Shown here: positions 14,031-17,862 of the stretch, in pieces
Numbering within the stretch: position 1 is the first letter of the stretch
Layout: each line of letters starts with the position of its first letter
From: Candidatus Iainarchaeum sp.
GTDB lineage: Archaea > B1Sed10-29 > WALL01 > JAGHAM01
Length of the DNA: 18,198 nt
Direction of reading: 5' to 3'
NCBI GenBank assembly: GCA_021161465.1
Contig: JAGHAM010000021.1
Coordinates: 1-18,198 of the forward strand
Program-made: the position numbers and the translations under genes
Notes under the pieces: model-generated
What the model saw: the letters and a program-made list of their open reading frames with translations, nothing else
The model's database searches: none
Told to the model about the DNA's origin: nothing

Positions 14031-14053
14031 GAACCATTCTGTAGGTGATTTTT

Positions 14054-14608
14054 GTGGATAAGGAACTTGAGCTGTTCAGGGCACTTTGTGATGAAACCCG
14101 TTTCAAGATAGTTAAATACCTTCTCACGGGGAGAAAGTGCGTTTGCGAGATCGTGGAAAAGGTTGGTAGAGCACAGCCAACGGTTTCACTTCAGCTGTCC
14201 AAACTTGAAGAGCTTGGTGTAGTGAAATCAAGAAGAGAGGGAAAGAAAGTTTACTACTTTATCTCAAACCAAAAAGTTAAGGGTTTGCTGGCAAAAAAAG
14301 ACTTCTCCAAATGGAAGGGGCTTGACAGGAGGGAGATAGAATGGTATCCCATAATAGACGAGAATAAATGCATAGGCTGCGGTATGTGTGTTACCAGTTG
14401 TGGGAGGAATGTGTTTAGCTTCGATAGTGAGAGGAACAAAGCCATTGTTGCTAATCCTTACAACTGTATGGTTGGCTGCACTACTTGCAGTGTTTACTGT
14501 CTGCAAGATGCGATATCTTTCCCTGACAAAGAGTATGTGAGGAACCTGATAAGAAAGCATGGTTTGCTGGGCAAGGCAAAAACGGAACTGCTTAAAATGA
14601 AGGAGTGA
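14054..14608 (+). CDS. ArsR-type winged-helix regulator fused to a two-cluster ferredoxin domain
   Basis: 184 residues from the GTG at 14054; AGGTGA lies 5 nt upstream, and the in-frame GTG at 14045 is inside that SD. Residues 1-75: ArsR/SmtB winged helix (ELFRALCDETRFKIVKYL, recognition helix QPTVSLQLSKLEELG, wing GKKVYYF). KCVCEI carries the paired cysteines (C29, C31) used for As(III)/Sb(III) sensing in ArsR, with C12 nearby. After a linker, residues ~101-157 form a ferredoxin domain. Its first motif is CxxCxxCxxxC (C106, C109, C112, C116); the second is CxxxCxxCxxxC (C138, C142, C145, C149), followed by L where P is usual. Two [4Fe-4S] clusters are predicted. The protein may combine metalloid sensing with redox or iron-sulfur sensing (inference). 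First gene of an operon with the exporter; it likely represses its own promoter. Confidence 0.87.
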   Translation: MDKELELFRALCDETRFKIVKYLLTGRKCVCEIVEKVGRAQPTVSLQLSKLEELGVVKSRREGKKVYYFISNQKVKGLLAKKDFSKWKGLDRREIEWYPIIDENKCIGCGMCVTSCGRNVFSFDSERNKAIVANPYNCMVGCTTCSVYCLQDAISFPDKEYVRNLIRKHGLLGKAKTELLKMKE

Positions 14609-14613
14609 CAAGC

Positions 14614-15612
14614 ATGAGGAAAATTTTAGCAATTCAGAAAAACCTGTCGAATAACATTCTCCTGTACACAATACTCATGATAGTCTTTGGTATGCTTGTT
14701 GGTTATTACATACCATCGGCTAAAGGCCTATCAGTTTTCATACTCCCTGTTGTTTTCATCATGATTTATCCAATGATGGTTAACCTCTCACTGTCTTCAC
14801 TTAAGAAGATACGTGGTTCGATTAAGCCGTTAATAGAAGCTCTTGGCTTAAATTTTGTGTATGCACCTGTAGCTATGTACGTTCTTTCATCGTTGTTCAT
14901 CCAGGACCCAAAGATACGTCTTGCGCTCATGCTGCTGTCAATAGCCCCGGCTTCAAGCATGGGTTTGGGCTACATCGGTCTTGCAGAGGGGCATGTGCTA
15001 ACCGGTGCAGTAATTGTTGCAATTGCATTCATATTGTCAATCTTTGTTTATCCTGTTGCAAGCAATATGCTTGTCGTTGGAACAGGAATAATTATCCCAA
15101 CTGATCTTCTCTTGAAGAGTTTGTTTCTTGTTTTGATTCTTCCACTCCTCTTGGGTGTTGCCACTAGGGAGTACATTGAGAGAAAGCATGAGGAAGGAGC
15201 GTTTAAGAACAAATTCAAGCCATACTTCTCAGTGATTTCTTTGGGCTTTTTGTATATGTTGCTTTTCCTCATCTTTGCTTCAAAAGCCGGGCTCATAGTC
15301 AAGAACTACATGAGCATAGTTGCAATTGCACCAGTGGCTTTGCTCTTCTACTCCATCACAATCCTTCTGATTTTGTTTGTCAACAGGAAAATTCTTAATT
15401 TAGAATATGGCCATCATCAGGCGGTGGTCTTCACAACAGTCAGCAAGAACGTTTCTTTAACTATAGCTATCCTGATTGCCGTGTTTGGTGAGGCAGGGCA
15501 ATACATGGCAATAGTCCCTGCAATAGTTTCATTGTTCCAGGCACCCATACTGATGTTTTATCTTAAGTATTCTGACAGAGTTAAAAGATTCTTCAGCGTT
15601 AACGAGAAATGA
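14614..15612 (+). CDS. BASS/ACR3-like membrane exporter
   Basis: 332 residues with about ten hydrophobic helices, as in the bile acid:sodium symporter/arsenite efflux superfamily. The start is the ATG at 14614, with SD AAGGAG 8 nt upstream; the in-frame GTG at 14605 lies inside that SD. The region TVSKNVSLTIAILIAVFG near 276-293 matches the TxxSxNxxLAIAxxxAVFG signature of ACR3-type transporters, and IAPASSMGLGYIGLAEGH (~110-127) corresponds to the ACR3 segment that normally reads RCIAMVxxWxxLAxGD. The cysteine that arsenite transport by ACR3 requires is absent here (PASSM). The substrate is therefore uncertain: arsenite, another oxyanion or metalloid, or an organic anion. The gene is downstream of, and controlled with, the ArsR-ferredoxin regulator, which points to detoxification. 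Confidence 0.83.
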   Translation: MRKILAIQKNLSNNILLYTILMIVFGMLVGYYIPSAKGLSVFILPVVFIMIYPMMVNLSLSSLKKIRGSIKPLIEALGLNFVYAPVAMYVLSSLFIQDPKIRLALMLLSIAPASSMGLGYIGLAEGHVLTGAVIVAIAFILSIFVYPVASNMLVVGTGIIIPTDLLLKSLFLVLILPLLLGVATREYIERKHEEGAFKNKFKPYFSVISLGFLYMLLFLIFASKAGLIVKNYMSIVAIAPVALLFYSITILLILFVNRKILNLEYGHHQAVVFTTVSKNVSLTIAILIAVFGEAGQYMAIVPAIVSLFQAPILMFYLKYSDRVKRFFSVNEK

Positions 15613-15789: not shown

Positions 15790-17058
15790 TCATAACCCAA
15801 GCAGCCATCTCCACACAGGAATTATTTTTATCCCAAGTCCCTTGTATATTTCACTACTGCTTTCGTCTAGCGTTAGTATCTTCAAGTTGGTGCATTTTAG
15901 CTTTTTCCCGACCTTCACCAAACCATCCATCTCTCTCGTTTTAGTTTCCATAGATGAAAGATCTGAACTTACCTGTATTAGCTCCTTCACCTTACCTCTG
16001 TCTGAAACTACAAAATCAACCTCAGATGAAACATCTTTCCAATAGCTTATGTGCATACCTGGCAGTTTTCTCCTTTGTAGCTCCAAGAATACAACAGTTT
16101 CCAAACGCCTTCCAATGTCTTCTTTACCAAGCAATTCAAGGAAACCAACATCATTTATATATGATTTGGTTATCCCAAGAGCATTTTTCCTCTCTGAATA
16201 GCTGAATCTTTTGAGGTTCAAAACAAAGAGGGAGTCTTCAAGCATGGATATATATGAGTATAGGGTATCCTTGCTGACCTTCATGCCTTGGGACTTGAGC
16301 GTTAAGTACAGCTTGTGAACACTAAGTTCAGAACCTGTGTTCGCCACTAGTGAATTCATGAGCCACCTAATGAGCTTAACGTTTCTAACTCGATACCTTT
16401 CAACTATGTCTCTATACACCACTAAGTTTAGATATTCTTCGAGTATTCTCAGCTTTTCTCTTTCGTTATTTTCCAAAACAACCTCAGGGAATCCCCCATA
16501 TTTTAAATATTCATTTAGGAGAGATCTAACTTTAGCTTCTTTTCTGGAGCTTAGTTTTTCAGGCTCAGTGACTCCTCTAGCATTAAGAAATTCTCTAAAT
16601 GAAAATGGGAATAGCAGATAAGTCGAGCTTCTTCCTCTAAGAGATGTTGCTATCTCTTTGCTTAACAGCTTTGAGCTAGAGCCCGTTATGTAAATGTCAA
16701 AACCTTCATCGTGAAGTGCTCTGACAGCTTTTTCCCACCCCGGTATGTTTTGAGGTTCATCAATGAATATGTGCACATTTTTTGATTCTGGAAATAGTTC
16801 CCAGAAAATCTTTAATACGCCTCTTATCCCCTTTCCTTCCAGCTCGCTTAGTCTAGGATCTTCAAAATTCAGGTAAAGCACGCTCTCTTTCATAAGTTCT
16901 TTCATCTTCTGGAACAAGAAGTAGGTTTTTCCTGCCCTCCTTGGTCCAACTATTGCTTTTATTCTCTTCCCACTAACCTTTAACTCTCTGGGTATCAGAT
17001 CTGGGAGACCCCGTTCCTGGAAGTCCAGTAAATATTCTCTTATGAGCATTCTGTTCAT
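15790..17058 (-). CDS. AAA_14/DUF4143 family ATPase
   Basis: 422 residues. Order: AAA+ domain with Walker A GPRRAGKT (38-45), Walker B IFIDEP (97-102), sensor-like ITGSSS (124-129), RGRSS, and the FPFSFREF segment typical of this family. A winged-helix region follows (~225-285: ELSVHKLYLTLKSQ, KDTLYSYISMLEDS, LFVLNL). The C-terminal DUF4143 domain has a restriction-endonuclease-like fold, with YW...EVDFV (346-350) and a KELIQVS strand in which the usual ExK is QVS, so nuclease activity is doubtful. These ATPases are common in archaea in variable copy number and often behave as accessory genes; their function is not settled. The leaderless start at 17058 is predicted from the TATA box; a second Met lies at codon 4. 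Two palindromic repeats cover the promoter. Isolated, convergent with the exporter. Confidence 0.88.
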   Translation of the reverse strand: MNRMLIREYLLDFQERGLPDLIPRELKVSGKRIKAIVGPRRAGKTYFLFQKMKELMKESVLYLNFEDPRLSELEGKGIRGVLKIFWELFPESKNVHIFIDEPQNIPGWEKAVRALHDEGFDIYITGSSSKLLSKEIATSLRGRSSTYLLFPFSFREFLNARGVTEPEKLSSRKEAKVRSLLNEYLKYGGFPEVVLENNEREKLRILEEYLNLVVYRDIVERYRVRNVKLIRWLMNSLVANTGSELSVHKLYLTLKSQGMKVSKDTLYSYISMLEDSLFVLNLKRFSYSERKNALGITKSYINDVGFLELLGKEDIGRRLETVVFLELQRRKLPGMHISYWKDVSSEVDFVVSDRGKVKELIQVSSDLSSMETKTREMDGLVKVGKKLKCTNLKILTLDESSSEIYKGLGIKIIPVWRWLLGL

Positions 17059-17080
17059 GGGAACTCTTTTACATATTCGT

Positions 17081-17089
17081 GTTTATAAA
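17081..17089 (-). promoter_or_regulatory. TATA box of the AAA/DUF4143 ATPase
   Basis: Minus strand TTTATAAAC, about 26 nt from the ATG at 17058, predicting a leaderless mRNA. The BRE side is covered by the first palindrome. Confidence 0.65.
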
Positions 17090-17116
17090 AGTTTCCTTCC
17101 ATACAAGGAAACTTTT
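17087..17116. repeat. 30-bp palindrome, copy 1 of operator-like repeat
   Basis: AAAAGTTTCCTT, spacer CCATAC, AAGGAAACTTTT: perfect 12-bp arms around a 6-nt spacer. It overlaps the last bases of the ATPase TATA box and the BRE position, so occupancy would be expected to block or modulate initiation. Repeated as copy 2, 33 bp further upstream. Confidence 0.85.
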
Positions 17117-17124
17117 TCAAAATC

Positions 17125-17146
17125 TTTCCTTCCATACAAGGAAACT
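17125..17146. repeat. Operator-like repeat, copy 2
   Basis: Twenty-two bases identical to part of copy 1 (17092-17113): TTTCCTT, CCATAC, AAGGAAA, then CT. Arms are 7 bp here. The centre-to-centre offset from copy 1 is 33 bp, about three helical turns, so both sites face the same side of the DNA. A lone TTTCCTT half-site also occurs at 17182-17188. Confidence 0.85.
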
Positions 17147-17199
17147 CTTTTGGACATCTACTCAACTTGCTTCGCTCGTGATTTCCTTGATAAATCTGT

Positions 17200-17285: not shown

Positions 17286-17549
17286 ATGAACTATGATGAG
17301 CTTTACCAGAAAATGAAGAAATATGCCGACGAGAATGGATACAAGCTAAATCCAAATGAGAAAGAGAGAGACGCACTTTTGAAGGCTTTGCTTGCCAATG
17401 AGAAAGAGCACGGTGAGATTTACTGCCCATGCAGGCGGGTGACAGGTGACAAGGAGAAGGACAAGAAGATAATCTGCCCCTGTGCTTACCATAAAGAGGA
17501 AATCGCCAGGGATGGGAGATGCTTCTGTGGGTTGTTTGTGAGGGGTTGA
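17286..17549 (+). CDS. Ferredoxin-thioredoxin reductase, catalytic subunit-like
   Basis: 87 residues. It reduces a thioredoxin-type disulfide with electrons from ferredoxin through a [4Fe-4S] cluster next to an active-site disulfide. The six family cysteines are present as CPC (47, 49), CPC (64, 66) and CFC (79, 81), with the usual IICPCxYHxxEI and CFCGLF context and an N-terminal helix pair. In plant and cyanobacterial enzymes the third motif is CHC and its His matters for catalysis; here it is Phe. No variable (alpha) subunit is present, as in archaeal relatives that work alone. ATG with SD AGAGG. The thioredoxin gene begins one base after the stop and is its likely substrate. Confidence 0.9.
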   Translation: MNYDELYQKMKKYADENGYKLNPNEKERDALLKALLANEKEHGEIYCPCRRVTGDKEKDKKIICPCAYHKEEIARDGRCFCGLFVRG

Positions 17550-17550
17550 G

Positions 17551-17862
17551 ATGAAGTTGTTGCTGTTTACTTCATCCCATTGCCCTCACTGTCCCAAGGC
17601 AGTTAAGATGGCCAAGAGAATTTTACCAGAGTTTAAGGGCAAGGATGTGGACTACAGAAAGATAAGAATGAAAACCAGTGAGGGGAAACGCCTGGCAGAC
17701 GAGTATGATGTTAATGCTACCCCAACTATCCTGGCATTTGATGGCTCTGGAAAACTCATCAAGAAGATAGTTGGCGTTCCAAATGAGGGAGAGCTGAGGA
17801 ATGCTATAAAGAAGGGGCTTGGAGAAAAAACCTCTTTCCTATCAAAACTATTTGGAGGTTAA
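17551..17862 (+). CDS. Small thioredoxin/glutaredoxin-like protein (CPHC)
   Basis: 103 residues of thioredoxin fold. First strand KLLLFTSSH, then active site C11-P-H-C14 at the start of a long helix, a YRKIRM strand, and cis-Pro in ATPTILAF (P58). Then a GKLIKKIVG hairpin, a final helix, and a short tail ending FLSKLFGG that could be weakly amphipathic. The CPHC dipeptide (as in DsbA) usually gives a more oxidising pair than CGPC, but the absence of a signal peptide places the protein in the cytoplasm. The gene starts 1 nt after the reductase stop, with GAGGGG upstream, so it is very likely the reductase's partner. Some methanogen and DPANN glutaredoxin-like proteins have the same size. Confidence 0.9.
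   Translation: MKLLLFTSSHCPHCPKAVKMAKRILPEFKGKDVDYRKIRMKTSEGKRLADEYDVNATPTILAFDGSGKLIKKIVGVPNEGELRNAIKKGLGEKTSFLSKLFGG

Follow-up and report, generated by a model that had tools for sequence, protein, structure and literature searches.

A Putative Private Operator of Twin Palindromes at the Promoter of an Archaeal PDC-S01 ATPase Gene

In this study, we analysed a stretch of 18,198 nucleotides from a Candidatus Iainarchaeum contig (JAGHAM010000021.1), referred to below as the window, and found two palindromes with a spacing of 33 bp over the promoter of an ATPase gene. We consider it probable that these twin palindromes form a private operator, which is bound by the winged helix-turn-helix (wHTH) of the ATPase itself and controls the promoter of its own gene, probably by autorepression. 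The architecture, its conservation, its restriction to the gene and its association with the recognition helix are all read from sequence comparison.

The ATPase belongs by sequence family and domain make-up to PDC-S01, a single-gene phage-defence candidate in PADLOC that comprises COG1373-like ATPases. PDC-S01 is described as a fusion of an ATPase with a PD-(D/E)XK-like domain; among the defence candidates of prokaryotes it is reported to rank fourth in abundance, to be archaea-enriched, with ~10,000 archaeal copies, and to be unvalidated (PMC12988326). A search of the open-access literature, which covers few subscription papers and preprints, retrieved no report of an operator or of autoregulation for PDC-S01, and nothing on the function or regulation of DUF4143, AAA_14 or COG1373.

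Results

The ATPase gene occupies 15790-17058 on the minus strand (422 aa, ATG at 17058) and is flanked by a convergent SBF transporter gene and a divergent FTR gene. The protein matched Pfam AAA_14 (E 1.3e-38, 132.3 bits vs a curated cut-off of 27), Pfam DUF4143 (E 3.5e-17, 63.1 bits vs a curated cut-off of 28.1) and, as did its homologs, the PADLOC PDC-S01 profile PDLC04787 (E 2.4e-109, residues 30-420). PHROGs and NCBIfam gave no assignment, the PDB gave no match by sequence, and no Orc/Cdc6 Pfam match was found. In the AlphaFold model, an AAA domain is followed by a wHTH and a C-terminal alpha/beta domain. The predicted wHTH (codons 227-284; 16207-16380, minus strand) is modelled with confidence (mean pLDDT 91.9) and consists of helices 227-239, 247-256 and 263-275, the last being the recognition helix, and a wing at 279-284. 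The winged helix that a sequence-only reading had placed within the ATPase was thus corroborated. Ser-Lys-Asp at codons 262-264 (16267-16275, minus strand) begins the recognition helix and belongs to the residue class associated with TTCCTT half-sites. The C-terminal domain (DUF4143, PD-(D/E)XK-like; codons 297-419; 15802-16170, minus strand) contains a conserved E-x-D...Q-V, in which E346, D348 and Q362 are invariant. There is no Lys two residues past Q362, and the usual PD-(D/E)XK catalytic Lys is not apparent in the sequence of this domain. In structural comparison, the AAA-winged helix core (residues ~7-312) gave Z scores of 14-16 to CED-4, NLRs and 2fna. The top matches of this core were the archaeal ATPases 2fna and 2qen (Z 16.1), followed by CED-4/NLR and Orc1/Cdc6, and the best PDB match by Foldseek was Orc1/Cdc6 on origin DNA.

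Other genes were observed in the window. The SBF-family transporter gene (14605-15612) is directly preceded by a gene (14045-14608) in which an ArsR-type HTH is fused with 4Fe-4S ferredoxin domains and whose product is perhaps a metal- or redox-responsive regulator of that transporter. The gene for the FTR catalytic subunit adjoins a thioredoxin/glutaredoxin-like gene (17286-17862). A frame for a cysteine-rich protein at 2-314 on the minus strand is cut by the contig end.

Both palindromes lie upstream of the ATG. Copy 1 (17087-17116, centre at -43.5 from the ATG) is composed of perfect 12-bp arms, AAAAGTTTCCTT (17087-17098) and AAGGAAACTTTT (17105-17116), around CCATAC, and it overlaps the BRE/TATA. 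The TATA box of the ATPase gene, TTTATAAA, is located at 17082-17089 on the minus strand with its centre at -27.5, 27 bp from the ATG, which would probably leave the transcript with little or no leader. Copy 2 (17125-17146, centre at -76.5) repeats 22 nt of copy 1 exactly at a spacing of 33 bp, the sequence TTTCCTTCCATACAAGGAAACT being identical at 17125-17146 and 17092-17113. The coordinates agree with the sequence-only reading on both the arms of copy 1 over the TATA/BRE and the exact repeat in copy 2. The longest perfect arm was 12 and the longest exact repeat 22, whereas in the same intergenic DNA, dinucleotide-shuffled 300 times, the maxima were 10 and 12, so that neither value was attained. 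No perfect arm longer than 8 was found elsewhere in the window. A TTTCCTT that had been noted as an extra half-site is indeed present at 17182, but as a further site it is weaker: its distance of 57 bp to the corresponding arm does not fit the 33-bp register, and it probably arose by chance. A weak dyad, GTTCATGGGAAC (17053-17064), spans the start codon with a 77% match to copy 2; it is also off register, and its status as a possible degenerate third site is doubtful.

We then searched whole genomes for the operator. The pattern TTTCCTTN6AAGGAAA had 2 matches in the 976-kb genome, both at the ATPase promoter, and the reversed-pattern control had 0 matches. The whole-genome search that had been proposed as a check therefore placed the motif at this promoter alone and not scattered. 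In three Bacteroidaceae genomes (2.3-3.0 Mb) there were 2-3 operator matches each, all at the gene. TGGTAC-N8-GTACCA occurred exactly 3 times in the G239 genome (archaeal, 2.1 Mb), always 5' of one ATPase and with 35/34-bp spacing. The operator was found at its own gene alone in 5/5 genomes tested, on which ground a global regulator with a scattered motif was rejected. Paralogs within G239 or within another genome, G045, had a different operator each. Since the operators are private and differ between paralogs, a shared host regulator does not fit. Five same-strand PDC-S01 ATPase genes in a run were observed at another locus (L036, G030:C9:1-12000). Their promoters carry different palindromes or repeats, and the sequence of this tandem array suggests orthogonal operators.

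To describe the family, homologs with upstream DNA were gathered from archaea, bacteria and plasmids by a locus search queried with a single protein, and each was scored by its best direct repeat within the interval from -110 to +25. The spacing of this repeat was 32-34 bp in 76/154 archaeal homologs (49%), compared to 6% in shuffles and 4% within the same genes. After dereplication at 70% identity, 163 homologs remained (132 archaeal and 31 bacterial), and 82 of these had their best repeat at 32-34 bp vs 7.1% in shuffles (p ~8e-50), comprising 21/31 bacteria and 61/132 archaea. Strong twin palindromes at this spacing, defined by four agreeing half-sites (two palindromes), were found in 53/154 archaeal genes, compared to 0/154 shuffles and 2/176 control genes. 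The four-half-site score in the bacterial set alone was positive in 21/29 vs 10/145 shuffles. In a later set that was held out from the forming of the rule, and in which about a dozen homologs are mutually related, the result was 13/20 vs 7/100. Control genes outside ATPase DNA gave 12% at 32-34 bp, which is far below the rate of the PDC-S01 family and above that of the shuffles. About half of the homologs had no clear 33-bp twin. These include divergent homologs, homologs with a single site or with 38-bp sites, and others whose starts may be misassigned. With regard to the proposed search upstream of homologous ATPases, the exact motif was not common to all of them, but the 32-34 bp promoter architecture was present in about half of the 163. 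In PF01637, a related ATPase family, the 33-bp twin was found in 1/26 Thermococcales promoters.

Two other spacings were observed. PF01637 promoters in Thermococcales-like genomes (L263-L292) had a 15-bp repeat spacing over the start site in 13/26, a count that is not dereplicated, and this family may have a self-operator geometry of its own. A Bacteroidales subgroup (L171, L185, L192 and L196) had very long palindromes, TTTTGGCTT...AAGCCAAAA, with 38-bp spacing instead of 33 bp, a half-turn difference.

The position of the sites relative to the gene was also regular. Relative to the ATG, the centres of archaeal sites fall on regular steps, at about -76, -43 and -9, and in many homologs one site occupies the step at ~-9 and covers the start site. 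The window has sites at -76 and -43, and at -9 it has either no site or a very degenerate one. In 30/43 archaeal cases, the distance from the nearest site to the TATA centre downstream of it was 14-18 bp. A third site one period away was found in 9/48, compared to ~7% expected; the idea of a third site in all genes was rejected, and triples are a minority. Triples in Bacteroidaceae had 33/33 bp (L160 and L163) or 32/33 bp (L166) spacing. The proximal palindrome of Bacteroidota, as read from sequence, abuts the presumed core promoter on its upstream side. That one spacing recurs with two unrelated machineries of transcription suggests the protein assembly, and not the host machinery, as its determinant.

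We next compared the operators with the recognition helix. TTCCTT half-sites were present in 9/9 dereplicated homologs with [S/A]-K-D at residues 262-264 (xKD), including Bacteroidaceae proteins only ~35% identical to the archaeal protein. At least 2 TTCCTT half-sites were found in 6/9 xKD homologs vs 5/154 others (Fisher p 1.5e-6). When the winged helix region was left out of the tree, xKD required 7 changes. Among independent pairs, which are too few for significance, the operator trait went in the same direction or did not differ in nearly all. The more similar two proteins were, the more similar were their operators (rho 0.24, null sd 0.06). Loci retrieved by the recognition-helix peptide QGMKVSKD had the window operator in 3/3 testable cases, in 2-3 copies, whereas loci of similar overall identity retrieved by the AAA-domain peptide QNIPGWEK had it in 0/36; the three QGMKVSKD loci are close relatives of one another and count as about one event. 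Sliding-window covariation in the mixed set gave SQGMKVSKD as the top window. In dereplicated archaea alone, the recognition-helix windows reached P 0.034 uncorrected and another window ranked first; this result is the stricter one, because the mixed set contains loci retrieved by the QGMKVSKD peptide. The sequence comparison thus supports the link between helix and operator well for one specificity class. Its support for the link in general is suggestive, owing to the modest archaeal covariation and the failure of a second rule.

That rejected rule, xKN to TTCCCT, had p 0.004 in the first set; held-out Bacteroidota showed TTCTTT/TTCCTT instead, and the rule is not claimed. Bacteroidales homologs with the recognition helix S-N-K-Y-L-Y (L210, L211 and L213) carry TTTAGTAA/TTACTAAA-like palindromes upstream and are possibly a further specificity class.

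The gene is accessory. In the nearest relative (G001, locus L240), the FTR-thioredoxin pair is conserved and the ATPase is absent. Homologs occur on 20 plasmid records and also in tandem clusters. A viral-contig scan for homologs found none; short contigs from faecal samples labelled as phage do hold homologs, and the origin of these contigs is doubtful. In Thermococcus-like genomes, a search with the flanking DNA gave no information, since the flank consists of a multicopy gene. Around the ATPase gene of the window we detected neither terminal repeats nor target-site duplications, the palindromic repeats are on its 5' side only, and there was no sign that they move the gene. The suggestion that ATPase and repeats form a self-contained spreading module therefore stood in part: the accessory gene and the plasmid homologs agree with it, but mobile-element ends were not found and the repeats are one-sided. 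The ATPase with its operator could be a compact one-gene unit, transferable with its own control.

Discussion

Direct binding, the oligomeric state, the sign of regulation and any coupling to nucleotide or infection are what we infer from these results. The ATPase would bind the operators via its wHTH, most likely as dimers, which would lie three helical turns apart on roughly the same DNA face. The promoter would be controlled probably by exclusion of TBP/TFB or RNA polymerase, that is, by autorepression. Repression is the most likely sign because of where the sites lie, which is over the BRE/TATA and, in many relatives, also over the start site. The operator of each family member would be read by the recognition helix of that same gene, and a gene with its own operator and its own recognition helix would allow many paralogs per genome without cross-talk. 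Autoregulation by the ATPase, and the repeats as its cognate recognition sites, had both been put forward in the sequence-only reading. Both proposals gained support from the shared 32-34 bp architecture and from the occurrence of the same operator sequence where the recognition helix is the same.

A further possibility, which we hold to be rather unlikely, is that in this STAND-like ATPase the winged helix acts both as a repressor and as a switch. The protein would rest on the operator in one nucleotide state, and infection or stress would cause release and derepression and engage the nuclease-fold domain. If this is true, activation and amplification would be one step in a single-gene immune module, and orthogonal operators would permit many such paralogs per genome.

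Some findings could be read in another way. The ATPase may bind the sites and activate its own promoter. Archaeal activators use positions upstream of the TATA or at its edge, and as both window sites are so placed, activation is a live alternative. We regard it as unlikely because copy 1 overlaps the TATA in the window, many homologs have a site over the start at ~-9, and the proximal site of Bacteroidota abuts the presumed core promoter, as read from sequence. A separate transcription factor encoded elsewhere may instead bind the palindromes and control the ATPase gene. Stand-alone factors are the usual readers of palindromic operators, and the wHTH of the ATPase is only a putative DNA binder. 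Winged helices of related STAND proteins often do not read sequence, and the position of this one in the middle of an AAA+ protein counts against it as a DNA reader. However, the operator is at one gene per genome tested and differs between paralogs, its sequence tracks the recognition helix of the ATPase, and its spacing is the same in archaea and bacteria. A separate factor would require one private external factor per ATPase and is improbable.

Mobility and replication give two further readings. The repeats would be recombination or nicking sites that move the nuclease-fold protein as an accessory element, for which the PD-(D/E)XK-like fold of DUF4143, the absence of the gene beside FTR-Trx in the nearest relative, the 20 plasmid records and the tandem clusters could speak. 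We give this little credence, as the repeats are confined to the 5' side at fixed distances to the TATA and the ATG, the gene has no flanking terminal inverted or direct repeats, and the catalytic Lys motif is not apparent. A still fainter prospect is a role of the ATPase as an initiator of the Orc1/Cdc6 type, with the repeats as an origin or as a cluster of iterons. Autoregulation from sites next to the gene is common among initiators, and the best Foldseek match, Orc1/Cdc6 on origin DNA, is of this kind. However, only 2-3 promoter-phased sites are present, there are many paralogs per genome with their own sites each, and in whole-model comparison the protein was closer to SSO1545/PAB2304 and NLR-type ATPases. 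Finally, many short palindromes arise by chance in AT-rich intergenic DNA, but chance or RNA hairpins can scarcely be believed here and are already contradicted by the controls. The arm length was not attained by shuffles, the spacing is conserved across domains, and the ATPase transcript should contain no hairpins from the -43 and -76 copies, which precede the expected start site.

We return to the reading of a private, self-bound operator. A conserved cis-regulatory architecture is an addition to what is known of PDC-S01, and a private, readable operator common to archaea and bacteria would be the first direct handle on this family. It could be used as a DNA ligand for biochemistry and structure determination, for the definition of start codons and family members, and as a reporter for the inducing signal. 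The PDC-S01 operators would also be a natural collection of orthogonal wHTH-operator pairs.

The nearest solved folds over the AAA-winged helix core are those of SSO1545 (2fna) and PAB2304 (2qen), which we take to be members of PF01637. The window ATPase belongs to a different Pfam group, AAA_14/DUF4143, and PF01637 promoters of Thermococcales show the 33-bp twin in just 1/26 cases and seem to carry repeats at a closer spacing. STAND/NLR proteins (CED-4, plant NLRs and Avs) and Orc1/Cdc6 have, like the ATPase, an AAA/NB core followed by a winged helix. Unlike STAND/NLR proteins, the ATPase has no C-terminal sensor repeats, and its C-terminus is DUF4143. The winged helix domain of NLRs is an autoinhibitory element, whereas that of the ATPase appears, from the sequence associations, to read DNA sequence. 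The data suggest that in this NLR/STAND-like ATPase the winged helix is still a sequence reader. DNA binding has been reported for the NLR Rx1 (PMC4599002).

AbiEi is a defence-associated wHTH protein that binds two inverted repeats over its own promoter and represses it (PMC3985639). The ATPase gene also has inverted repeats over its own promoter and its own predicted wHTH. However, AbiEi is the antitoxin of a two-gene operon, whereas the ATPase is a single gene with no nucleotidyltransferase toxin partner. The AbiE repeats are two arms (23-3-23), and those of the ATPase gene are two complete palindromes 33 bp apart. One gene would here combine regulator, ATPase and nuclease-like domain. The mycobacterial ATPase IniR has an SSO1545-like AAA domain and acts as a transcription factor (PMC5760070), but its DNA-binding domain is a separate one at the C-terminus, and its target of activation is a different operon, iniBAC. 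As a single gene with a putative DNA-reading domain inside the ATPase, the PDC-S01 gene of the window is a member of neither AbiE nor IniR.
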